Below are positions 19,066-36,335 of a DNA stretch of 38,804 nt, piece by piece. The notes under the pieces were generated by a model. The model ran no database searches. It was given only the letters and a program-made list of their open reading frames with translations, and was not told where the DNA came from. A program made the position numbers and the translations under genes. The DNA lies in assembly GCA_012517325.1 (NCBI GenBank), contig JAAYVF010000062.1, forward strand, positions 1 to 38,804, in the 5' to 3' direction. Source of the stretch: Myxococcales bacterium. Its GTDB lineage: Bacteria > Lernaellota > Lernaellaia > Lernaellales > Lernaellaceae. Each line of letters begins with the position of its first letter. Positions within the stretch are counted from its first letter, which is position 1.

Positions 19066-20574
19066 TTAACCGTTTTCCCGCGGCGCCGGATCGCCGACGC
19101 GGGCGACGATCCGCCGGGCGTATTCGAGCGTGTCGCCGCCCTGCAGGATCGAGGTCAGAACCTCGGGGACCAGAGGCATGAAGCGCGCAAAATGACGGGC
19201 CAGTTGCAGATCCACCCGCTCCAGCACCTGGTCGGTGCCTTGGAATTCGCCGCCGATCTCGCGCTTGCGATTTTTCCAATAGACTTGTTCGTCGTCGTCG
19301 AGGAAGCGAATCACCCCGGCCCAGAACAGCAGTTTCTGCACCGCGTAGATGGTCTTTTGCGTCAACTCGTAACGCGGCAGGCCGGAGGCGCCGAGGCTGT
19401 TTTCGGCATAGGCGCCGAGCAGGAATTCCTCGAGCTCGTATTCGCTGAGCGGGTTGCCCGGGCCGTTGATGCGGAAAATTTCCGCCACGACCGGTTGGGT
19501 GATCTCGCGGTTGTACAGGTAGATCCGCGGCTCCCAAAGCGTCCGCAAATAATCGCTGCGCTTGATGTCCTCGGGCCGGGTCGGAAAAACCGGCGGCGCT
19601 TCGTAACCGCGTTCCTCGAAAACCATCCGCGGCGGCATCGCGCCGAACTGTCGCGGCTCGGGCTCGGCGATCGAAACCACCGTGCGATAAGCCGCTTCGC
19701 TTGTTTCCGGCTCCGGCTCCGGCTCCGGCTCCAATTCGATGTGATGGCTCAAATCGGCATTCAACTCGGCGGCCTCCGCGGCGATCAACGAGGTGGCCGG
19801 CCGTTCTTTGAGGTCGACCTTCATTTCCTGGTAACGCTCGTCGAACGTGACGTTCACCACGTCGCCGCACGCGGCGAGGAACTCGCGGAAATTCCCGAAA
19901 CCCAGATCGGCTTCGTCGAAGGAGGGAGCCAGTTGAATCATCTGCCACCGCAGCCAACGGCCGACGGCCGGCCGGTCGGCGAAGCGGTGCCGCTGCATGG
20001 CGCGCACCAATAGATCCTTGGCTTCCTGAATGTCCATGTCGCCGACCTGCTCCCGCAGGGAGTGCGGATCCTCGACGGCGATGGTGCGGTAAAAACGAAA
20101 GAGATTGCAGGCATGCACGAGGTGTTCGCTGGTGTGCTGCCGCGTCCCGATGCCGACCACCTTCTTGCCGTGCTTGCGCAGGTTGAGGATCAGCCCGGTG
20201 TAATCCGAATCCGACGCCACGATGACGAACGTGGTGATCTGCGGATAGAGAAACAGCGCCTCCATCGCGTCGGCGGTCAGCCGGATGTCGGCCGCGTTTT
20301 TGCGCTGCGTCCCGCGCGTGTAGATTTGCGCCAGGTCGACGTTGTTGCCCAACAGATTGTACATGTGCGGGTTGACGTAGTGCCAGTTCGAGTAAGCCCG
20401 TTTGATCGTCACCCGGCCGATGTTCTGGTCCACGTAATCCAGAACCTTGTTCATCTGAAACGGCTCGTCGCCAGCCTCCTCCACGGTCAATCGCATATTT
20501 TCAAAATCGATGAAAACAGCCGCGACATCCTTGGCGGGATCAAACAACGAGGGTGCTTCGGTGTCATTAAACAT
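19066..20574 (-). CDS. NYN-domain ribonuclease-like protein with LOTUS/OST-HTH domain
   Basis: A 502-aa cytoplasmic protein. The N-terminal NYN (LabA/DUF88, PIN-like) domain shows AAVFIDFENM with acidic D23/E25, NAADIRLTADAM and the conserved VIVASDSDYTGLI; these acidic residues match the nuclease-type metal site. Residues about 182-255 (IQEAKDLLVRAM, then GNFREFLAAC) resemble a LOTUS/OST-HTH RNA-binding domain. An EPEPEPEPE hinge follows, coded by a short tandem repeat, then an unrecognised ~190-aa C-terminal region. The arrangement recalls the animal MARF1/limkain RNA-regulation proteins. AAGGAG precedes the ATG. The RNA target is unknown. Confidence 0.82.
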   Translation of the reverse strand: MFNDTEAPSLFDPAKDVAAVFIDFENMRLTVEEAGDEPFQMNKVLDYVDQNIGRVTIKRAYSNWHYVNPHMYNLLGNNVDLAQIYTRGTQRKNAADIRLTADAMEALFLYPQITTFVIVASDSDYTGLILNLRKHGKKVVGIGTRQHTSEHLVHACNLFRFYRTIAVEDPHSLREQVGDMDIQEAKDLLVRAMQRHRFADRPAVGRWLRWQMIQLAPSFDEADLGFGNFREFLAACGDVVNVTFDERYQEMKVDLKERPATSLIAAEAAELNADLSHHIELEPEPEPEPETSEAAYRTVVSIAEPEPRQFGAMPPRMVFEERGYEAPPVFPTRPEDIKRSDYLRTLWEPRIYLYNREITQPVVAEIFRINGPGNPLSEYELEEFLLGAYAENSLGASGLPRYELTQKTIYAVQKLLFWAGVIRFLDDDEQVYWKNRKREIGGEFQGTDQVLERVDLQLARHFARFMPLVPEVLTSILQGGDTLEYARRIVARVGDPAPRENG

Positions 20575-21100
20575 GTGTGATCTCCTTGATTAAACAATAC
20601 ATGATTAGAAAGAACGCCAAGTTCCATCCGACCCAGTAAACCTAAGTCATCCGGCGGAAGTGTCAACCATTTTCTGTTGCGGCCGCACTGGGGGGCAAAA
20701 CGACTTGTCTCTGGATTTCCAGGAAGAAAAAAAGAGGGAAAAATGTCTATTATGGTTTGATATCAGGCACTTACGAAGCTAGCAGCGGGTGGACAACTGG
20801 TTTTGCAACAATTCCGACTTTGTGCTGTTTTGTGCAGCCGCTGCGCTATACGGCCATATAACCAAAATCCCCGTAAACAAAGAATAAAAACCATAATTTG
20901 GTAGCAACGGGATAAAACCTGGAGCGCGACAGGTCGGAAATATTTCCGACTAGGACGTAAGTGCTTGAGATATAGCGGTAAATCGCGATAAAAATGAGAA
21001 TCGGAATGAAAATCGGAAAAATCCTTCATTCTAAAAAATGAATTAGGCCAATTTGACCAACTGTTAGTTATTATTAGTCTATCTTGTGAATAAACAGCCC
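20575..21100. other. AT-richer intergenic stretch with repeat remnant
   Basis: More than 500 bp with lower GC than the rest of the window. I accept no gene here: a 120-codon minus-strand frame (20763-21125) overlaps the next gene and has no family resemblance. The main content is the inverted-repeat element at 20761-20972. Confidence 0.55.
20761..20972. mobile_element. Possible MITE or decayed IS with imperfect terminal inverted repeats
   Basis: The left end reads TATC-AGGCACTTACG (20761-20775). The reverse complement of the right end (20956-20972) reads TATCTCAAGCACTTACG, giving about 15 matching positions with a 2-nt gap. A perfect 18-bp palindrome GTCGGAAATATTTCCGAC (20933-20950) sits just inside the right end. 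At about 212 bp with no transposase, it fits a non-autonomous or deleted element. The family is not identified and no clean target duplication is visible. Confidence 0.45.
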
Positions 21101-21394
21101 TCACAGCTCCTCCATCCACCACCACCAGTGAGAGCGGGGGAACGATTCACGCCATAATTTGATGGTCTCGAAGCGCTCCTTGTTGCCAATCACCCAATCC
21201 TTTTGCTCGGTCAAGATGCGGCGTAGTTCGGCAAACTCAGTATGGTTGGCTTGCTCGGAAGCCTTTCCTTTGGCCACCATCGAAGAGATGTTCTCAAGCG
21301 CCGGTGGAAAATAAGTATCAAACCGGTCCTCATCAGGCGGCACAAGCGATTGAACCTGCGTTGCGATCGTCGCCGTTATTTTAACCGTAGCCAT
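21101..21394 (-). CDS. Hypothetical protein, second gene of a two-gene operon
   Basis: A 97-aa protein, not recognised. It starts MATVKITATIATQVQSLVPP, has a charged helical middle (EFAELRRILTEQKDWVIGNKER) and ends with an unusual run of four Trp followed by MEEL. No signal peptide or membrane helix. An AAGGA site precedes the ATG, which overlaps the end of the upstream gene by 19 bp, indicating translational coupling. Base composition is less GC-rich than the neighbours, consistent with acquisition by transfer. Confidence 0.65.
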   Translation of the reverse strand: MATVKITATIATQVQSLVPPDEDRFDTYFPPALENISSMVAKGKASEQANHTEFAELRRILTEQKDWVIGNKERFETIKLWRESFPRSHWWWWMEEL

Positions 21395-21978
21395 ATCATT
21401 TGCTTCCTTCTGTTTTCCAGACGTTTATCAAAATCATCGATATAGTTACATGAGCGAATGACGCCTTCCGCGTCCACATCAACCTCCATTGGCGGCGATT
21501 CAGACATATAAACGTACTGCATTTCGCCTGCCCCTGCCTCCGAACCGCGTGGGTAGATCTGTACAAGTATTTCCTTGGCCTGAGCAACCGCGGTGGAGGC
21601 GATGGCGGCGAGATCTCGCTTGGCCTGCTCCTTTAGCGCGTCACCAGCGTTCCTGTCAACCGCAATGCCGAAATCGGGTCCGTGAGCGAAGATATCATGT
21701 TTGGCATCTTGTCGATTGTACGAGAGACCTTCCCTGGTGGCGGCTTTCCGCTTGATATCAGAAGCTCGAAGATAGTGTTCAGCGGGCGTATAGCTACGAA
21801 CACGCTTTTTGTCGCCATCACCGACATGACTGCCATCAACTAAACTTGGAGCGGTAGGCGATTCGAGGATCGCCATCGTCGTCGTCTTGCACCTGTAGTG
21901 GTAGATCGGCAGCCCGAAGTTGTCCGGCAGCGCCTCCGTTTTTCCGGTGTAACGTCCCTTCCACGGCTGGGCGTTCAT
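21376..21978 (-). CDS. Hypothetical protein, first gene of a two-gene operon
   Basis: A 200-aa hydrophilic protein with no recognised family. The ATG at 21978 follows GAAGG closely; an in-frame ATG at 22083 would put the palindromic operator inside the coding region and is not preferred. The N-terminus has MNAQPWKGRYTGKTEALPDN and an isolated YHYRCKTT; the middle is rich in charged residues (YTPAEHYLRASDIKRKAATRE), and a helical Ala/Lys-rich segment follows. It ends overlapping the next gene. It is divergent from the LexA-like gene and shares its control region. It may be a stress-responsive accessory operon; that is inference from position only. Confidence 0.6.
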   Translation of the reverse strand: MNAQPWKGRYTGKTEALPDNFGLPIYHYRCKTTTMAILESPTAPSLVDGSHVGDGDKKRVRSYTPAEHYLRASDIKRKAATREGLSYNRQDAKHDIFAHGPDFGIAVDRNAGDALKEQAKRDLAAIASTAVAQAKEILVQIYPRGSEAGAGEMQYVYMSESPPMEVDVDAEGVIRSCNYIDDFDKRLENRRKQMIWLRLK

Positions 21979-22053
21979 CAGGCCTTCTTTCGTTTTCGCC
22001 GCCAGAGCCGCAGCCGGCCGGCGCCGTTCGCCGCGCCAAACAAAAACAACCGC

Positions 22054-22081
22054 TTGACCCCATACATTTGTATGGTATATC
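22054..22081 (+). promoter_or_regulatory. Promoter with palindromic operator in its spacer
   Basis: TTGACC (22054-22059) and TATATC (22076-22081) are separated by 16 bp, and that spacer is exactly the palindrome CCATACATTTGTATGG (22060-22075): 7-bp perfect arms around TT. A repressor bound there would block RNA polymerase. The site lies between the LexA-like gene and the divergent unknown operon, so both could be controlled from it. Sequence facts are direct; LexA-type regulation is inferred. Confidence 0.65.
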
Positions 22082-22125
22082 ATGGCCGCTGTTGATTGGC
22101 CCGTTGGGCACCAGGGGTTTTGCGC

Positions 22126-22596
22126 ATGAATCCAGTTTTGACTTTGCCGGCTCGCGTTCGCCGTTTAGCCGGGCATGAGCCGGCGGCCGGTTTGCTTCGG
22201 CCGGTCGGTCGCCCGGTAAAAGTGCCGCTCGTCGGCATCATCGCCGCAGGCCGTCCGGTCGATGCGGTCGAGGTGCTCGACGAGGACGCGCTGATCGACA
22301 TCCCGGCTTCCTATTTGTCGACGGGCGAGCATTTCGCGCTACGGGTGGTGGGCGATTCGATGATCGAGGACGGCATCTGCGACGGCGACCTGATCCTCGT
22401 GCGCAAGCAGGACCACGCCGAATCGGGGCAGACGGTGATCGCGCTGACCGAAGGCGAGGCCACGGTAAAAAAGCTTTATTATCATGGCGATCAAGTCGAA
22501 TTGCGGCCGGCCAACGCGGCCATGCAATCGTTTTTTCTGCCGCGCGGGCGCCTGGTCATCCAGGGCTTGGTGATCAGTCTTCTGCGGCGATATTGA
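22126..22596 (+). CDS. LexA/UmuD-type S24 peptidase lacking the HTH domain
   Basis: A 156-aa protein consisting almost only of the self-cleaving LexA C-terminal domain. It shows the VPLVGIIAAGRP cleavage region with the Ala41-Gly42 bond, the nucleophile Ser78 in VVGDSMIEDGICDGDLILV, and the activating Lys115 in EATVKKLY. Full LexA proteins (~200-230 aa) carry a winged helix of about 70 residues ahead of this; here only about 35 residues precede it and an in-frame stop (22093-22095) prevents extension upstream. AGGGG precedes the ATG. It could be a UmuD-like protein, a truncated LexA, or a regulator working with a separate DNA-binding partner. No Y-family polymerase is adjacent. Confidence 0.85.
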   Translation: MNPVLTLPARVRRLAGHEPAAGLLRPVGRPVKVPLVGIIAAGRPVDAVEVLDEDALIDIPASYLSTGEHFALRVVGDSMIEDGICDGDLILVRKQDHAESGQTVIALTEGEATVKKLYYHGDQVELRPANAAMQSFFLPRGRLVIQGLVISLLRRY

Positions 22597-22732
22597 CCGG
22601 CCGGGCGATCGAAAAATGGTTTAAATTCGCCCGAAAACTTCCCCAAAAAATGAATTTCTCCTTTTTTTTCAACAAGTTGTAACATCCTAATGGTTTACTT
22701 TAACTATTTTTTGTAAGTGATTGAAAAATTGC
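22597..22732. other. AT-rich spacer before putative RNA promoter
   Basis: Strongly AT-rich DNA with T- and A-runs after the LexA-like gene. No ORF or hairpin terminator is recognised. It may act as an upstream promoter element or as part of the origin region. Confidence 0.4.
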
Positions 22733-22761
22733 TTGATTTTAACTTTTTGCTTTGTTATAAC
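22733..22761 (+). promoter_or_regulatory. Strong sigma-70-like promoter of putative RNA
   Basis: TTGATT (22733-22738), a 17-bp spacer and TATAAC (22756-22761), embedded in AT-rich DNA. No credible protein start follows, but a structured region does. Confidence 0.6.
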
Positions 22762-22767
22762 CGATTC

Positions 22768-23045
22768 CGTTCACGGGACGGATCGGAAGGATCAGGCACT
22801 CAAAAACGTCATCAGGGGTGATGGTCAGGCGTGTGAGTTCCCTGATCCGGCTCTTTCACAAAAAAGCGTTTTGACGTGCGGCGGCTTCGGCCGCAGGCGG
22901 CGATCCACCTGGGCCCGAAAAAAAATGGGCCGGGTGGGCGCCCGATCAACGAGCCCCCAAGCCCGGCTTCTGCTGGGACCCCATATTGTTCCGGCGCCGC
23001 ATGTGCCGCGTTAAAATTTATGCGGCGCCGGAATCTTCTTTTTTG
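22768..23045 (+). ncRNA. Candidate structured RNA of about 275 nt, family unknown
   Basis: Bounded by a good promoter and a terminator-like hairpin, with several potential stems. GGATCAGG pairs with CCTGATCC, reinforced by ACTCA/TGAGT, and encloses a CATCA/TGATG hairpin. A second stem pairs CCACCTGG-GCCC with GGGCCGGGTGG around an A-rich loop. A third is the 14-bp terminal hairpin. No long frame with a ribosome site exists. It lacks the signatures of SRP RNA (GGAAGCAGCC-type apical loop), RNase P RNA and tmRNA that I would recognise. A novel RNA, a diverged 6S RNA, or an origin-associated transcript are possible. Confidence 0.4.
22989..23033 (+). terminator. 14-bp hairpin followed by T-rich tract
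   Basis: TTCCGGCGCCGCAT (22989-23002) and ATGCGGCGCCGGAA (23020-23033) are perfect complements around a 17-nt loop. TCTTCTTTTTT follows, as in an intrinsic terminator for plus-strand transcription. Confidence 0.6.
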
Positions 23046-23399
23046 GTTGTAGACCCTTTTCGTCGACAAGGCAAATCAAATCCTGAAAAACGATAGGTTT
23101 TTTATCATCGGTAAAAAAAAGAAGGTGCCTTTTTCCTGGTTGGAATCGTTGATATCGTTCGGTTTTCACGTTTATCGGCCAATTGGTTTTATTGTTGCAT
23201 CCTTCCACATCGCTTTTTTTTGATTGGCGACGCACCGGGCGAAACTATCCCGCAAACCGGGTAAAAGAACTCGGTAAAGAGCGGGTACTAAAATTCAAAT
23301 GGCCGGTTGATCGGGTTGGCGACCCCTTTTTCCTGGTTGTTGTACGCCCTCGAAAAATAATGAAATTTTTTACTCCGGGCGACCCGGCGGAATAAATAA
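23046..23399. other. AT-rich intergenic DNA, no supported gene
   Basis: Short overlapping frames on both strands (for example 23011-23235 minus and 23183-23395 plus) have no ribosome site or family resemblance. Most likely part of the origin-proximal non-coding region. Confidence 0.45.
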
Positions 23400-23640
23400 G
23401 CGGGGTTGTCGACAACCTGTGGACAACTTCAAGACCTTTCTTTTCGGGGTGTCGGCGGAGCGCCTGACGAAAACCGGAAATAAAATTATGCATATAAATT
23501 ATAATTTCAAAATCGAGAAAATAACGCTTGAATGACAAGGGGATCGGACATTTGAGAAAAACCATGGGTCCGGGCTGCGGCGCCTTCCCGTTTTTAAGTT
23601 AATTCATTGGAATAAAAATATACTTATCCACAGGTTGTGG
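23400..23640. other. oriC: Likely replication origin (oriC)
   Basis: Directly upstream of dnaA. The palindrome GGTTGTCGACAACC (23404-23417) abuts a DnaA-box variant TGTGGACAA (23418-23426, reverse of TTGTCCACA). An AT-only-like stretch at 23478-23515 could be the duplex-unwinding element, and a perfect DnaA box TTATCCACA lies at 23624-23632. Presence of dnaA, dnaN and nearby parS sites supports an origin. The exact boundaries, and whether the dnaA-dnaN gap also contributes, cannot be fixed by eye. Confidence 0.7.
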
Positions 23641-23922
23641 ATTCGTTTTCCCTTGATTTCCGCTTGGATAAAAAATCGGCAGAAAAAAATAAAAAAACAG
23701 TTGAAACCGTTTGGCCGACTTGCTAGAGATGCACCCCAGGATTTCGGTCCTTCACCTTTCCATCGGAGAATAAAGGCTACCTATCGATGGAAAATCACAG
23801 GTGAATTTGCCACTTTAGTGGCTTTGTTGATTTGGGTCAAGGCGAAAACAAACCAAATCGCTGATAAAGGACATTCGGCTGGCGGGTTCGTATTCCCCGG
23901 TCGGGTTTGGGGTTTTGAAAAT

Positions 23923-25254
23923 ATGGATACGTTGTGGATTCGTACGCTCGAAGCTTTGAAAACTCGTGTCGATTCCAAAAATTTCGCGGCCTGGTTGCAA
24001 CCGCTGACGCAAATCCAAGTCAACAAAACGTATCTGCGACTGGCCGCTCCCAATAAAATGGTCCGTAAATGGTTCATCGAAAATTACCTGGCCATCGCGA
24101 CCGATGCCTTGCGGAACATTGCCGGACGGGAAATCCTCATCGAGGTGGAACTGTCCGAATCGCAAATGACTTTCGATCAAAAAGTCTTTGCCGCGCCGAT
24201 CAAGCCGGAACCGGCCGAAGTCAAGAAGACCAACAATAATTTGCCGAACGAATCCTATACGTTCGACAACTTCATCGTCGGTCCGTCCAACGAATTCGCC
24301 TACTCCGCCAGCTTGAACGTCACCAAATCGCCCGGCCAAGGTATGAATCCGTTGTTCATCTACGGCGGCACCGGGTTGGGGAAAACCCATCTGCTCAATG
24401 CCGTCGGCGTCAAGTTGTTGAAAAAACATAGCGATATGCGATTGATGCTGGTCTCCGCCGAAAAATTCATGAATGAGTTGATCAGCGCCATTCAGGGCAA
24501 GCGAACGACCGCCTTCCACAAAAAATACCGCAACCTCGATGCCCTGCTCATCGACGACGTGCAGATCATCGGCGGCAAGACAGCCACCCAGGAAGAATTT
24601 TTCCATACCTTCAACGCGCTGTACGAGAACGGCGCCCAGATCGTTCTGGCCTCCGACAAATACCCGCGCGAAATACCGATGCTCGAGGAACGCCTGCGCA
24701 GCCGCTTCGGCATGGGGATGATCGCCGACATCCAGGCGCCCGAACTGGAAACCCGCATGGCGATCGTGCGGAAAAAAGCCGCCTGGGAAAACATCACCCT
24801 CAGCGACGAGGTGGCTTTCTACATCGCCAGCCACATCACCAGCAACATCCGCGAACTGGAGGGCGCCTTGCGCCGGGTGGCGGCGTTCGCCGAACTTTAC
24901 AACGGCCAGATCAACCTCGAGGTGGCGCGCAAGGCCTTGCGCAACCTGGTCGGCGACCCGGACCGTCCGATCGGCGTCGAACAGGTTCAAAAAGCGGTTT
25001 GCGAACTGTTCAACGTCAAACAGGCCGAATTGATCGGCACACGCAAACACAAAGCCGTCGCCGAACCGCGACAGGTGGCGATGTACCTTTCCCGGAAATT
25101 GACCCATTCCAGCTTCCCGGATATCGCGAAAAAGTTCGGCAACCGCGATCACACGACCGTGATGTACGCCTGCCGGAAAGTCGAGGATCAAGCTCGTCAG
25201 GATCCGACCCTTTTCGGAATGTTGGAAACCTTGGAAAAGACTCTCCGCAACTAA
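23923..25254 (+). CDS. dnaA: Chromosomal replication initiator DnaA
   Basis: A 443-aa AAA+ ATPase that binds DnaA boxes and opens oriC. The ATG at 23923 gives the family N-terminus (MDTLWIRTLEALKTRVDSKNF, domain I); the frame is open further upstream but that part is not DnaA-like. Domain II is short and Asn/Lys-rich (about 90-105). Walker A GGTGLGKT is at 148-155 and Walker B LLIDD at 208-212. A sensor/arginine-finger region follows (ERLRSRFGMGM). Domain IV has the DnaA signature NRDHTTVMYACRKV from 407. The ribosome site is weak, which is common for dnaA. DnaA boxes upstream suggest autoregulation. Confidence 0.96.
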   Translation: MDTLWIRTLEALKTRVDSKNFAAWLQPLTQIQVNKTYLRLAAPNKMVRKWFIENYLAIATDALRNIAGREILIEVELSESQMTFDQKVFAAPIKPEPAEVKKTNNNLPNESYTFDNFIVGPSNEFAYSASLNVTKSPGQGMNPLFIYGGTGLGKTHLLNAVGVKLLKKHSDMRLMLVSAEKFMNELISAIQGKRTTAFHKKYRNLDALLIDDVQIIGGKTATQEEFFHTFNALYENGAQIVLASDKYPREIPMLEERLRSRFGMGMIADIQAPELETRMAIVRKKAAWENITLSDEVAFYIASHITSNIRELEGALRRVAAFAELYNGQINLEVARKALRNLVGDPDRPIGVEQVQKAVCELFNVKQAELIGTRKHKAVAEPRQVAMYLSRKLTHSSFPDIAKKFGNRDHTTVMYACRKVEDQARQDPTLFGMLETLEKTLRN

Positions 25255-29134: not shown

Positions 29135-29270
29135 ATTGTCGACTACCCGAACGCCGATTGTTTTTTTACCGATCACCGGCAACCCTTTTCCGGACAACCC
29201 CTTGCCAATGCCGCGCTTTCTCGGCAAGCTGGGCGCGCGAACGAGCGGTACGATTGTTGGAGTGAATGAG

Positions 29271-31859
29271 ATGGTTCAAGACGAACAACCCAGGGATCTT
29301 TCGAACCGCATCAACCGGATGCGCCGGCGTTACCAGACCGAAAAGCCGGTCATTTCCATTCAGCGGGCGAAATTTTTCACCGAAAAGTGGCGCGAACTCG
29401 AGACCTCCGGCCTGCCGCTGGGCATGCGCGTCGCTTACGCGATCAAGAACGTCTACGAAAAAATGACGCATCATCTCGATCCGGACGACCGGTTGGCCGG
29501 CGCCTGGACCGAGCATTTTCTCGGCTGGCCGATCGACATCGAGCGCGGGCTGTTCAACGATGTGTTGAAGGTCGAACTGAGCAAAAGCACGATGCTCGCC
29601 TACCAGACGCGCGCCTATTCGCGGTTCATGGGTTACCTGGTCCGCCGCCACGGACCCAAGGGCGCGGCGAAGTTGCTGAAAAACAGCGCCGGACTGGGCC
29701 CAACGCCGGTCAACGTCGGCCTCAAGACGCTGCTGGACCGTGAAATCAACGCCTTCGCCATCGACCCGGCCGACAACCGGGTATTGCAGAAGGAACTGTT
29801 GCCCTATTGGCGCGGCCGTTCGGTGGCCGACCGCCTGGCCGAGGAACTGCGCGCGGCCGGCCTGCCCGACGGCGAAATGGCCCGGTTCATCGACGGTGTG
29901 CCCAACACCCCCTCCAAACAGGTGTTCATCGTCGGCGTCGGGGCGTCCATCGCCGCCTACCAGGGCCACCTGGTGCTCGATCACGAAAGCGTTCTGCGCC
30001 TGGGCCTGCTGGAGATGCGGCGCGAAGTCGACGAGCGGCTGGCCGGCCTGGCGGAAACCGACGGCGAGGGGCGCGATTTTCTGTTGTCGCTGGCGATTTC
30101 GCTCGACGGTCTGATGGTGTTCTGCCGCCGGCTGGCCGACCGGATCGAGGAAGCGTTGCTGGCGGAACGCGAGCCGCGGCGCAAGGCCGAACTCGGGCGG
30201 CTGCTGGCGATCTGCCGCCGCGTGCCGCTCCATCCGGCGGTCGATTTTCGCGAGGCCGTGCAGGCGTTGTGGACCCACCGGGTCGCCGTCGAACTGGCGC
30301 ACCCCGACAACGTTCACGCCTACGGCCGGCTCGATCAACTGCTGTATCCGTACTATCACGCCGACCGCGCCGCCGACCGCCTGTCGCGCGAGGAAGCGCG
30401 GGAACTGCTCGAGGAATTGCTTCTCAAGGTCATGGCGCAAAACATCCGGCCGGAATCGAATTTTCTCGGCAATTTTTACCTGCGCTACGAGGGCTCGACG
30501 CCGATCACCCTGGGCGGCCGCCGGCGCGACGGCGCCGACGCGGTCAACGATCTGACCTACCTGTTGTTGGAGGCGGCCGATCGTTCCAAGAGCGTGACCA
30601 GCATCGTCGTGCGGGTTCATCGCGACACGCCCGACGAGCTGTACGGCGCGGTGGCCGACCGCCTCGCCGGCGGCACGGCGAGCTTCTCGTTCATGAACGA
30701 CGAGGTGCTGATCCCGGCCATGGAGCGTTACGGCTACGCGGCCGAGGACGCGCGCGATTACGCCATCACCGGCTGCACGGATCTGCTCGCGCCCGGCAAG
30801 ACCGGCGGTATGGGCTTCGCCGGTTTGCTGCTGGGCCGCCTGCTCGACCTGACGTTGCACAACGGCGACGCCCGGATGCTGCTGGGCCCGATCGCCGGCG
30901 CCGGCCCGCGCACCGGCGAGCCGGATTCGTTCGCCGATTTCGCGGCGCTGCTCAACGCGTTTTTCGTCCAGGCCGACCACCAGGTGAAACTTTGCCTATC
31001 GGCTTCCAACCTGCGTGACCGCGTGTTCGCCGACCTGCTGCCGGCGCCGATGATCTCCGCCTTCATTCGGGGCTGCGCCGACCGCCGCCGCGACGTCACC
31101 CGCGGCGGGGCCGATTACAACCTCACCGGCATCAACATGATCAACAGCCTGGCGAACGTGATCGATTCGCTGTACGTCATCCGGCGGCTCGTGTACGAGG
31201 AAAAACGGTTCTCGCTCGGCGCTTTGGTGCGGGCGACGGACGAAAACTTCGTCGGCCACGAGGCAATTCTCGCCGCGGTGCGGGAAGTGAGTGGCAAGTG
31301 GGGCAACGGCGAGCCGGAGTGCGACGCCCTCGCCCGCGAATTCACCGACCGGCTCTTCGCCCTGGTCGAGAAGCGGTCGACCTTCAAGGGCGGTCCGGTG
31401 GCGCCGTTCCTCAACAGCATGACCTCGCACACCCTCGACGGCCGCCTGTCGCCGGCGACGCCCGACGGCCGCCGGGCCGCGACGCCCTACGCCGCCAGTT
31501 GCAACCCGTACAACGTCGAACGCGCCGGCCTGACCGGCGTGCTGCGCTCGGTCGCCGCGCTAGATTTCACGCGACAGCTCGGCTGCGCCGTCAACATCCG
31601 CCAGCATCCGTCGGCGCTGGGCGCGCACCCCGAAACGCGCCGGAAGTGGATCGACCTCGTGCGGACCTACTTCCGCCTCGGCGGCGCGCAACTTCAGCCC
31701 ACGGTGGCTTCGGCCGACACCTTGCGCGCCGCGCAACGTCGGCCGGACGAGCACCGCGACCTGATCGTCAAGGTCGGCGGCTACAGCACCTATTTCGTCG
31801 ACCTCGGGCGCGAGATTCAGGACGAGATCATCGCCCGCACGGAGCACCAGGCGACATGA
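29271..31859 (+). CDS. Glycyl radical enzyme (PFL-like family), substrate unknown
   Basis: An 862-aa oxygen-sensitive radical enzyme of the pyruvate formate-lyase/glycerol dehydratase superfamily. The ATG at 29271 has GGAG 8 nt before it; an open frame upstream is not enzyme-like. The glycyl-radical loop near the C-terminus is VKVGGYSTYFVDL, with Gly837 as the predicted radical site, followed by LGREIQDEIIARTEH. The thiyl Cys502 lies in ITGCTDLLAPGK. Dehydratase and lyase members normally have Cys-x-Glu here, and this one has Cys-Thr-Asp. It is followed, with a 4-nt overlap, by its radical SAM activase. Pyruvate formate-lyase itself is unlikely because it has two adjacent Cys. The substrate cannot be assigned and no microcompartment genes are near. 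Confidence 0.9.
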   Translation: MVQDEQPRDLSNRINRMRRRYQTEKPVISIQRAKFFTEKWRELETSGLPLGMRVAYAIKNVYEKMTHHLDPDDRLAGAWTEHFLGWPIDIERGLFNDVLKVELSKSTMLAYQTRAYSRFMGYLVRRHGPKGAAKLLKNSAGLGPTPVNVGLKTLLDREINAFAIDPADNRVLQKELLPYWRGRSVADRLAEELRAAGLPDGEMARFIDGVPNTPSKQVFIVGVGASIAAYQGHLVLDHESVLRLGLLEMRREVDERLAGLAETDGEGRDFLLSLAISLDGLMVFCRRLADRIEEALLAEREPRRKAELGRLLAICRRVPLHPAVDFREAVQALWTHRVAVELAHPDNVHAYGRLDQLLYPYYHADRAADRLSREEARELLEELLLKVMAQNIRPESNFLGNFYLRYEGSTPITLGGRRRDGADAVNDLTYLLLEAADRSKSVTSIVVRVHRDTPDELYGAVADRLAGGTASFSFMNDEVLIPAMERYGYAAEDARDYAITGCTDLLAPGKTGGMGFAGLLLGRLLDLTLHNGDARMLLGPIAGAGPRTGEPDSFADFAALLNAFFVQADHQVKLCLSASNLRDRVFADLLPAPMISAFIRGCADRRRDVTRGGADYNLTGINMINSLANVIDSLYVIRRLVYEEKRFSLGALVRATDENFVGHEAILAAVREVSGKWGNGEPECDALAREFTDRLFALVEKRSTFKGGPVAPFLNSMTSHTLDGRLSPATPDGRRAATPYAASCNPYNVERAGLTGVLRSVAALDFTRQLGCAVNIRQHPSALGAHPETRRKWIDLVRTYFRLGGAQLQPTVASADTLRAAQRRPDEHRDLIVKVGGYSTYFVDLGREIQDEIIARTEHQAT

Positions 31860-32764
31860 ACGGCATCGTTTTCGACCTGCAGTACAACGCGCTTCACGAC
31901 GGGCCGGGCATCCGTACGCTGATCTTTCTGAAGGGCTGCCCGCTCGATTGCGCCTGGTGCCACAACCCCGAGTCCAAGGCGCTCGGCCTCGAAATGGCCT
32001 TTTGCCGCGACCGGTGCGTCGCCTGCGGCCGCTGCGTCGAGGTCTGCCCGCGCCAGGCGGTGCATTTGCACGACAAAACGATCCATCGGCTGGCCGATCG
32101 TTGCACGGTCTGCGGCGAATGCGCGGCGGCGTGCCAACAAAAGGCGCTGGAAAAAATCGGGCGCGAAATTTCGGCGGCCGCCGTGGTCGAGGCGGCACGG
32201 CGCGACCGGCCGTTTTACGAGCAGTCGGGCGGCGGCGCGACGTTTTCCGGCGGCGAGCCGACCATCCAGCTGGATTTTCTGCTGGCGGCGGCGCAGGCGC
32301 TTCGCGCCGACGGCATTCACGTCGCTCTCGAGACGTGCGGCCTGTTTCCGGCGGCGCGGCGCGCGGATCTCGCGGCGGCGATCGATCTGTTTCTCTTCGA
32401 CCTCAAGTTGATCGACGACGGCGCGCACCGGCGCTGGACCGGCTCGCCGAACGAAAAGATCCTCGAAAATTTTGCCTGGCTGGCCGCGGCCCTGCCCCCC
32501 GAACGGCTGTGGGCGCGGCTGCCGGTGATTCCGGGCGTCACGGATACGCCCGCCGCCTTGCGGCAACTCGTCGAATACCTGCAATGGACCGGCTTTCGCG
32601 GCCCGGTCCACCTCATGCCCTACAACCGCCTCGCTAAAAACAAATGGGAAAAAATGGGCCGCGGCGACGATTACCGCGACTTCGGCGAACTCGCCCCCGC
32701 CGCCCTCGCCGCCGTGGCGAAACGCTTCGCCGCCGCGGGTTTCGCGGTGACCGTCAGCGAATAA
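31856..32764 (+). CDS. Glycyl radical enzyme-activating radical SAM protein
   Basis: A 302-aa partner that generates the glycyl radical using S-adenosylmethionine and a [4Fe-4S] cluster. The radical SAM motif is C28-x3-C32-x2-C35 (GCPLDCAWCHNP). Two further ferredoxin-like clusters are inserted: C54/C57/C60/C64 and C83/C86/C89/C93; this insert is typical of activases for dehydratase-type enzymes and absent from the activase of pyruvate formate-lyase. FSGGEPTIQ (132-135 GGEP) binds SAM. ATGA overlaps the upstream stop, so translation is coupled. Confidence 0.93.
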   Translation: MNGIVFDLQYNALHDGPGIRTLIFLKGCPLDCAWCHNPESKALGLEMAFCRDRCVACGRCVEVCPRQAVHLHDKTIHRLADRCTVCGECAAACQQKALEKIGREISAAAVVEAARRDRPFYEQSGGGATFSGGEPTIQLDFLLAAAQALRADGIHVALETCGLFPAARRADLAAAIDLFLFDLKLIDDGAHRRWTGSPNEKILENFAWLAAALPPERLWARLPVIPGVTDTPAALRQLVEYLQWTGFRGPVHLMPYNRLAKNKWEKMGRGDDYRDFGELAPAALAAVAKRFAAAGFAVTVSE

Positions 32765-34207: not shown

Positions 34208-36076
34208 TTATTTATATTTCTTTTTATGCAGATAAATCATCAGCACTTGGAGGGCGGCGGGGGTGACGCCGGGGATGCGGCCGGCCTGGCCGAGGGTGCG
34301 GGGACGGACGGCGGCCAGCTTGCCGGCGATTTCGGTAGAGAGGCCGGGCAATTCGCGATAAGGTAAATCATCAGGAAGTTCAATGGCTTCCGATTCACTG
34401 AGCCGCCGTGCCGATTGTTCCTGCCGGTCGAGGTAGCCGTGATAGTGGATCTGGATTTCGATCTGCTCGATGATTTCTTCGGCGAGCGGCGGTCGCGCCG
34501 AATCGAGCGGCGCCAAGGCCGCGTAATCGAGTTCGTCGCGCCGCAACAACTCAGCCAGCGAGGTCTTGTTGTGAATCGGCGCCGAACCCCTGCTTTGCAG
34601 AAAATCCAGCACGCCGGCCGTCGGGGTGACGAAGGTCTGCGCGAGCCGCGCGGTCTCGGCGGCGATCGCCCGCAGTTTTTCGTCGAGCCGGCGGGATCGC
34701 TCGGCGGACACGAGGCCGAGCGAGGCGGCCAGCGGGGTCAGGCGCTGGTCGGCGTTGTCCTCGCGCAGCAGCAAGCGATACTCGGCGCGGCTGGTGAACA
34801 TGCGATAGGGTTCCTCGGTGCCCTTGGTGACCAGATCGTCGATCAACACGCCGATCATCGCCTGGTCGCGACGCAGGATCAGCGGCTCGCGCCCCCATAT
34901 TTTGTGTACAGCATTGATTGCCGCCACAAGCCCTTGTGCCGCAGCTTCTTCGTAGCCGCTTGTGCCGTTGATCTGGCCGGCGAAAAACAGATTTTCAAGG
35001 CTTTTGACTTCCAGCCACGGGTGCAGGTGGATCGGGTTCAGGTAGTCGTATTCGATCGCGTAGCCGGGGCGGACGATCTCGGCCTTTTCGAGCCCCGGCA
35101 GGCTATGGATCATCGCCGCTTGCACGTCGATCGGCAGGCTGGTGGAGATGCCGTTCGGGTAAACCTCGGTGGTGCCCCGCCCTTCCGGCTCCAGAAAGAT
35201 TTGATGCGCCGCGCGATCGGGGAAACGCACGATTTTATCCTCGATGCTTGGGCAGTAGCGCGCCCCGACACCCTTAATCACTCCGGAATACAAGGGGCTG
35301 CGGTCCAGCCCCTGCCGAATGATATCCCGAGTTTTTTCATTGGTGTAGGTGATGTGGCAAGGAATCTGCTCGACCGGATGCGGCGGGGTTTCGAAACTGA
35401 AAAAGGCCGGCTTTTCGTCGCCCGGCTGCACGGTCAACGGCGAATAGTCGATTGTGGTGCCGTCGAGGCGGGCCGGGGTGCCGGTTTTCAAGCGGCCGAG
35501 CGGCAAGCCAAGCTCGATCAGGTGTTCCGACAGCGAATTGCTGGGCGCTTCGCCCAAACGCCCGCCGGCGAAATGGGTCAAACCGATGTGCAACAGGCCA
35601 CGCAGAAAGGTTCCGGTGGTTAACACGGTCGCGCCGGCCAGATAACGACGACCGGAGCGGCCTTCCGCGCCAAAGACTTTTCGCCCGTCGACCACCAGGC
35701 GTTCGATCGAATCTTGCCGCAGATGAATATTCGGCTCGCGCTCGATGATTTCGCGCATCATCTGGCTATAAGAGGCCATGTCGGATTGACAGCGGCGCGA
35801 CCGGACGGCGGCGCCTTTTTTGGTTCCCAGGCGGCGGAATTGAATCGCCGTGGCGTCGGCCACCTTGCCCATGATTCCGCCAAGGGCATCGATTTCGCAC
35901 ACCAGGTGGCCTTTGGCCATGCCGCCGATGCACGGGTTGCACGACATCCGAGCGATGGCCTCGACATTGGTCGTCACCAGGCCGACCCGCGCCCCTAGCC
36001 TGGCTGCCGCGTGAGCCGCCTCGACCCCCGCGTGGCCGGCGCCGATGACCAGAATATCGAAATGTTCGTCCAGCAT
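34208..36076 (-). CDS. mnmG: tRNA uridine-5-carboxymethylaminomethyl modification enzyme MnmG
   Basis: A 622-aa FAD protein that, with MnmE, modifies U34 of certain tRNAs. Dinucleotide-binding motif VIGAGHAGVEAA is at residues 10-21, the family block SCNPCIGGMAKGH follows, then LKTGTPARLDGTTIDYS and the FAD motif FAGQINGTSGYEEAAAQGLVAAIN. The helical C-terminal domain (LSTEIAGKLAAVRPRTLGQAGRIPGVTPAAL) is complete. MnmG genes are often close to origins and parAB; here a parS site lies just upstream of its start, but mnmE and parAB are not in the window. Confidence 0.96.
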   Translation of the reverse strand: MLDEHFDILVIGAGHAGVEAAHAAARLGARVGLVTTNVEAIARMSCNPCIGGMAKGHLVCEIDALGGIMGKVADATAIQFRRLGTKKGAAVRSRRCQSDMASYSQMMREIIEREPNIHLRQDSIERLVVDGRKVFGAEGRSGRRYLAGATVLTTGTFLRGLLHIGLTHFAGGRLGEAPSNSLSEHLIELGLPLGRLKTGTPARLDGTTIDYSPLTVQPGDEKPAFFSFETPPHPVEQIPCHITYTNEKTRDIIRQGLDRSPLYSGVIKGVGARYCPSIEDKIVRFPDRAAHQIFLEPEGRGTTEVYPNGISTSLPIDVQAAMIHSLPGLEKAEIVRPGYAIEYDYLNPIHLHPWLEVKSLENLFFAGQINGTSGYEEAAAQGLVAAINAVHKIWGREPLILRRDQAMIGVLIDDLVTKGTEEPYRMFTSRAEYRLLLREDNADQRLTPLAASLGLVSAERSRRLDEKLRAIAAETARLAQTFVTPTAGVLDFLQSRGSAPIHNKTSLAELLRRDELDYAALAPLDSARPPLAEEIIEQIEIQIHYHGYLDRQEQSARRLSESEAIELPDDLPYRELPGLSTEIAGKLAAVRPRTLGQAGRIPGVTPAALQVLMIYLHKKKYK

Positions 36077-36086
36077 GATCCCGCCT

Positions 36087-36104
36087 TTGTTTCACGTGAA
36101 ACAA
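36087..36104. promoter_or_regulatory. parS: parS centromere site 1
   Basis: TTGTTTCACGTGAAACAA is a perfect 18-bp palindrome containing the universal ParB site TGTTTCACGTGAAACA. It sits 11 bp upstream of the mnmG start codon, so ParB binding could also affect mnmG transcription. Confidence 0.93.
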
Positions 36105-36317: not shown

Positions 36318-36335
36318 TTGTTTCACGTGAAACAA
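36318..36335. promoter_or_regulatory. parS: parS centromere site 2
   Basis: A second perfect TTGTTTCACGTGAAACAA, 231 bp from the first. It overlaps the 3' end of the amidohydrolase-like gene, encoding its last residues (Cys-Phe-Thr) and the TGA stop. Confidence 0.93.

Follow-up and report, generated by a model that had tools for sequence, protein, structure and literature searches.

LexA and UmuD are built on a common fold. The LexA repressor (TIGR00498) has a C-terminal domain with a scissile Ala-Gly bond and a Ser/Lys dyad 37 residues apart, and is expressed from a promoter of autoregulation style. The gene analysed here shares these properties and is also orthologous and syntenic with a true LexA, but its product (P0001) has no winged helix-turn-helix (HTH), and its original operator appears to have given way to one of a second LexA type (LexA2). 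UmuD/UmuD', a subunit of DNA polymerase V, is likewise an S24 domain that lacks an HTH and carries a short, cleavable arm at its N-terminus, whereas P0001 derives from LexA, has a pre-cut arm of 41 aa against 24 in UmuD, scores under the UmuD family cutoff and has no adjacent umuC.

In Leptospira, the palindrome of LexA2 occurs only at its own promoter, where LexA2 and the other LexA both bind (PMC3789691). A second LexA of a genome related to ours (G002, same family) resembles this case in that its palindrome, the operator of an extra LexA, is limited to its own promoter within that genome; the Leptospira LexA2 keeps its HTH, unlike P0001. A further system concerns the neighbouring DNA. The MuF polymorphic toxins of temperate phages are accompanied by a small downstream ORF, a proposed immunity gene (PMC5576092). 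The fragment that adjoins our gene has the end of a MuF domain, a C-terminal extension and a small downstream ORF, but keeps the 3' end of the phage gene only, and its C-terminal domain is a putative toxin by likeness.

The locus lies in a stretch of 38,804 nucleotides (the window) from a genome represented by one metagenome-assembled genome (MAG), 96.75% complete. Its features are collected in Table 1.

Table 1 Features of the truncated lexA locus in the window.
Feature	Position	Strand	Evidence or remark
Conserved neighbour, large gene called NYN	19066..20574	-	Divergent from lexA in G002 too; name from sequence reading alone
Stretch between conserved flanks, occupying the place of the G002 lexA promoter and HTH	20618..22219		blastn
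97-aa partner gene (P0003) after the MuF 3' end	21101..21394	-	Homologues after the MuF gene in L069, L073, L068
3' end of phage MuF-like minor head protein gene: MuF domain end and C-terminal extension	21379..22005	-	Homology to longer frames in G003, G191 and to a cassette in G001
-35 box TTGACC	22054..22059	+	Read directly, promoter scan
Operator-like CCATACATTTGTATGG, a perfect 7-2-7 palindrome that takes up the spacer between -35 and -10	22060..22075	+	Palindrome search; same sequence in the G002 lexA2 promoter
-10 box: TATATC at 16 bp, or TATCAT at 18 bp	22076..22083	+	Read directly / promoter scanner
Shine-Dalgarno-like AGGGG, 8 nt before the ATG	22113..22117	+	Read directly
P0001 (156 aa), LexA C-terminal peptidase domain lacking the HTH	22126..22596	+	Profile matches, alignment, structure model
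30-residue N-terminal arm of P0001, replacing the winged HTH	22126..22215	+	Structure model
Scissile A41-G42 of P0001	22246-22251	+	Alignment
Ser78 of P0001	22357-22359	+	Alignment
Lys115 of P0001	22468-22470	+	Alignment

The truncated gene and its product

The reading frame of P0001 is intact from the ATG at 22126 to the stop at 22596. An earlier note on this DNA had given the span as 22054-22596; its end holds, whereas its start is that of the -35 box. P0001 scores 93 bits with Pfam S24 and 120.3 bits with the NCBIfam lexA equivalog (cutoff 110.95), the latter match covering only profile positions 79-201 of 203, while the UmuD family profile reaches 58.2 bits, below its cutoff of 110. In the sequence alignment, A41-G42, S78 and K115 all fall at invariant positions, which bears out the earlier claim that the Ala-Gly bond and the Ser/Lys dyad are kept. 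The Ser-Lys spacing is 37 residues, as in E. coli LexA (S119/K156).

The earlier note had also described the DNA-binding domain as missing, and we agree: a six-frame search with PF01726 (LexA HTH, E<=1) gave no match at C62, the contig that carries P0001, and the lexA profile match starts well inside the model. An HTH concealed by a frameshift can be ruled out as well, because the C-domain begins some 140 bp after the -10 box, which leaves too little room. The structure model of P0001 is of modest quality (mean pLDDT 67), with values below 50 for residues 1-25, which are probably disordered; its structural matches are LexA first, then lambda repressor and UmuD'. From these data, P0001 is predicted to be a peptidase that descends from LexA and lacks a DNA-binding domain; direct operator binding would not be expected.

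The DNA that encodes the arm (22126-22215) has no convincing homologue among 98 genomes, and the source of 22010-22225 could not be traced, just short GC-rich matches being found. No relatives of P0001 occur in viral contigs, leaving a phage origin of the protein unsupported.

HTH-less LexA-like frames are rare in related genomes: nearly all matches listed in a survey of 386 genomes have at least 200 aa. Two candidates were seen elsewhere. One (L053, in G058, from another bacterial lineage) encodes a LexA-like peptidase without HTH, 137 aa from its ATG. The other lies at the contig end of a Planctomycetota MAG (L019, 2944-3307), where an L25-like N-terminus is fused in frame to a LexA peptidase domain behind glmU- and prs-like genes; this could be another LexA without HTH, or else a chimera of the assembly. 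We also considered a kinship between this L25-like N-terminus and the P0001 arm and rejected it, the similarity being too weak and the L019 contig being cut off.

Relation to a full-length lexA

The best homologue of P0001 in G002 is a complete 211-aa LexA with HTH (lexA1), with 71% identity in the C-domain. As in the window, the NYN gene is its divergent neighbour, and blastn aligns two blocks of the locus: positions 231-1038 of L028 correspond to 19810-20617 of the window, and positions 1529-1905 to 22220-22596. In a tree of the C-domain the window gene pairs with the G002 lexA1 (G002_C61) with support of 96/97. Upstream of G002 lexA1 lies AATGTTCGGTATATAACTACCGAACATT, and a sequence like it is absent from the window promoter. 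Given the shared synteny and this pairing in the tree, we read the window gene as the ortholog of lexA1, minus the N-domain and the original promoter and operator. The best explanation would be that promoter, operator and winged HTH of lexA1 were replaced beside the MuF prophage fragment.

The neighbours of P0001 are this fragment, the NYN gene and a dnaA-like gene. The AT-rich intergenic stretch 22597-23924 directly precedes the dnaA-like gene and a dnaN-like gene and contains the DnaA-box-like sequences TTATCCACA at 23624 and TGTGGACAA at 23418; it is a probable oriC adjoining the truncated lexA. Two perfect copies of TGTTTCACGTGAAACA, the parS consensus, stand at 36088-36103 and 36319-36334, just upstream of a GidA/MnmG-like gene (34208-36076), as expected close to a replication origin. 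Elsewhere in the window (29136-32764), a glycyl-radical-enzyme-like gene precedes an activating-enzyme-like one that has ferredoxin motifs.

A probable MuF prophage fragment in place of a damage module

On the other side of the promoter, the earlier note had seen a compositionally distinct, divergent two-gene operon and proposed it as the partner in a damage-inducible module. Both ORFs exist, and their GC content is 53%, whereas the NYN and lexA genes have 61-62%, but the first (P0002, 200 aa, an ORF from 21978) belongs to a longer phage gene, of which it forms the 3' end. In G003 and G191, its homologues are the C-terminal parts of MuF-like frames of 475 aa and 420 aa; in G001, it has a homologous C-terminal cassette. 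Full-length MuF forms occur in G003, while the window holds the 3' end only. Homologues of P0003 lie directly after MuF genes in G003 and G001 (L069, L073, L068; 31-41% identity), a position that suggests an immunity-like role.

This kinship emerged from related genomes only. Searches of P0002 against Pfam, NCBIfam, PHROGs, phages, plasmids, viral contigs and PDB gave nothing convincing, so that the MuF identity of the pair comes from reading its longer relatives, library models staying below significance. In addition, a homologue of the 200-aa protein is missing from G002, where the full-length lexA is syntenic, at odds with a linkage of the pair to S24 peptidases. The pair is thus best taken as a putative prophage fragment between the NYN gene and lexA, and the proposed module is not borne out.

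Homology of the MuF fragment begins at LAAKTK, at window position 22005. Cassette homology likewise starts at two places in G001 (L068 C17 and L074 C9), one of them at a contig start. These start points could possibly mark a recombination boundary of toxin cassettes.

Promoter, palindrome and candidate binders

The palindrome CCATACA-TT-TGTATGG spans the whole 16-bp gap between TTGACC and TATATC, exactly between the two boxes as described earlier, although the promoter scanner prefers TATCAT with 18-bp spacing. A palindrome across the -35/-10 region is frequent in lexA promoters of other phyla, and this feature of SOS boxes, a palindrome overlapping the lexA promoter, is found at the window gene. 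With up to one mismatch allowed, the 5.2-Mb genome has this palindrome in no other promoter, and all four sites with one mismatch lie inside coding frames; among 2.9 million viral contigs it was found in 111 stretches.

Among six class-mate genomes (about 29 Mb), the sole perfect match is CCATACATATGTATGG at G002:C359:1452-1467, which is the promoter of the second, full-length lexA of G002 (lexA2). The sequence CCATACANNTGTATGG is common to the two promoters, and the five remaining relatives have no perfect copy. The G002 LexA2 belongs to a separate LexA clade (support 100/100). Because the sole perfect copy in the relatives sits at a lexA2 promoter, the earlier suggestion that another LexA binds the palindrome gains support. 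A LexA2 gene was not found in this genome, the G002 LexA2 query matching only the LexA at C49 (44%) and the window gene. Our preferred reading of the palindrome is that of a LexA2-type operator ahead of the truncated lexA1.

Promoters of LexA paralogues across G001-G006 (L055, L064, L082) carry markedly different palindromes, AGCAGTCATATGACTGCT, CCATACATATGTATGG and GAAGACAAATGTCTTC, within one clade, which suggests fast operator turnover among the LexA paralogues of this class.

The LexA at C49 is the one complete LexA with a recognised HTH in this genome. Its promoter reads TTGACC-GGTACGAAGGTACGGGG-TACACT and has a TAC-N4-GTA core in common with the window operator, a likeness spotted after seeing both. 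The pattern TTGA..TACN4GTA..TA gave three matches, namely the two source lexA-type promoters and one near an unrelated gene; this does not exceed the reversed control, and no wider regulon was found. The palindrome is not a general SOS box, because the promoters of recA, of the two Y-family polymerase genes and of the remaining lexA (C49) do not have it. The earlier expectation that it would recur at other SOS genes thus fails at these four. Candidate binders in this organism are the C49 LexA and a LexA2 encoded in the few percent that the assembly lacks; it may also be that the site has no binder here.

Discussion

We propose that the window gene is a truncated but intact lexA1 that carries a LexA2-type operator and encodes a UmuD-sized peptidase and dimerisation domain acting as an SOS decoy or dimer partner, and we give this reading a probability of about one half. 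Under it, the promoter would be sigma-70-like with the LexA2-type operator as spacer, and a LexA bound at the palindrome would keep the gene low. Upon DNA damage, RecA filaments would trigger cleavage of the bound LexA and expression of P0001 would rise. P0001 could then cut itself at A41-G42 and dimerise while binding no DNA. Most likely it would compete for RecA filaments or pair with full-length LexA as a non-binding dimer partner; a role as UmuD-like polymerase manager would be less likely. Against this explanation, the window operator may be an orphan, with LexA2 not found here, and neither recA nor the two Y-family polymerase genes carry it. A more ambitious version is rather unlikely: that a LexA paralogue has turned into a LexA-controlled, self-cleaving SOS modulator (decoy or dimer poison), its operator swapped from another LexA, as an independent analogue of UmuD or a feedback anti-repressor.

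Another history is also conceivable, in which a prophage-related rearrangement beheaded lexA1 and the ORF is a transient, functionless leftover. The HTH-less lexA1 comes from a single MAG, no second member of the genus with a persistent HTH-less state having been found; the gene adjoins a phage fragment, the LexA2 that would use the operator was not found, and in the C-domain tree the window branch is about 1.8 times that of G002 (0.24 vs 0.13). However, the ORF, catalytic residues, ribosome site and promoter are intact and the operator is perfect. Between the C-domains of P0001 and its G002 homologue, dN is 0.20 and dS 0.75, codon-position identities are 0.77/0.90/0.57, and relative-rate tests are not significant. 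These values agree with purifying selection acting on the peptidase domain, with some relaxation allowed by the longer branch. Part of this divergence nevertheless predates the loss of the HTH, and most of it could, and for that reason the gene may be a recent relic. Weighing both sides, we regard a relic as somewhat unlikely.

Returning to a functional P0001, it might instead partner a Y-family or ImuB-like polymerase after RecA-triggered self-cleavage, as a UmuD-like manager. Its size and architecture do resemble UmuD (139 aa), UmuD' is among the structural matches, and the genome encodes two Y-family proteins (genes on C97 and C87). This role is nonetheless improbable, for P0001 scores as a LexA and far under the UmuD cutoff, no polymerase gene is adjacent and the operator is absent at both Y-family genes. 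That the palindrome arose by chance or serves an unrelated regulator is very improbable: the window holds ten perfect 7-2-7 palindromes, so a bare one is ordinary, and no recognisable LexA2 was found in the genome, but a perfect one that fills a promoter spacer is expected only about 0.006 times per window, and its sole perfect match in six relatives is also at a lexA promoter.

If the decoy or dimer-partner reading is right, the locus would record the passage from a repressor to a stand-alone damage-response peptidase, a transition seldom caught in the act. Of two related genera, one has an intact, ancestor-like lexA at this chromosomal position and the other a beheaded one, and the apparent operator of one LexA paralogue stands before another. 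Because the intact and the beheaded gene are syntenic and the operator is shared between paralogues, HTH loss and operator exchange become directly testable in two proteins.
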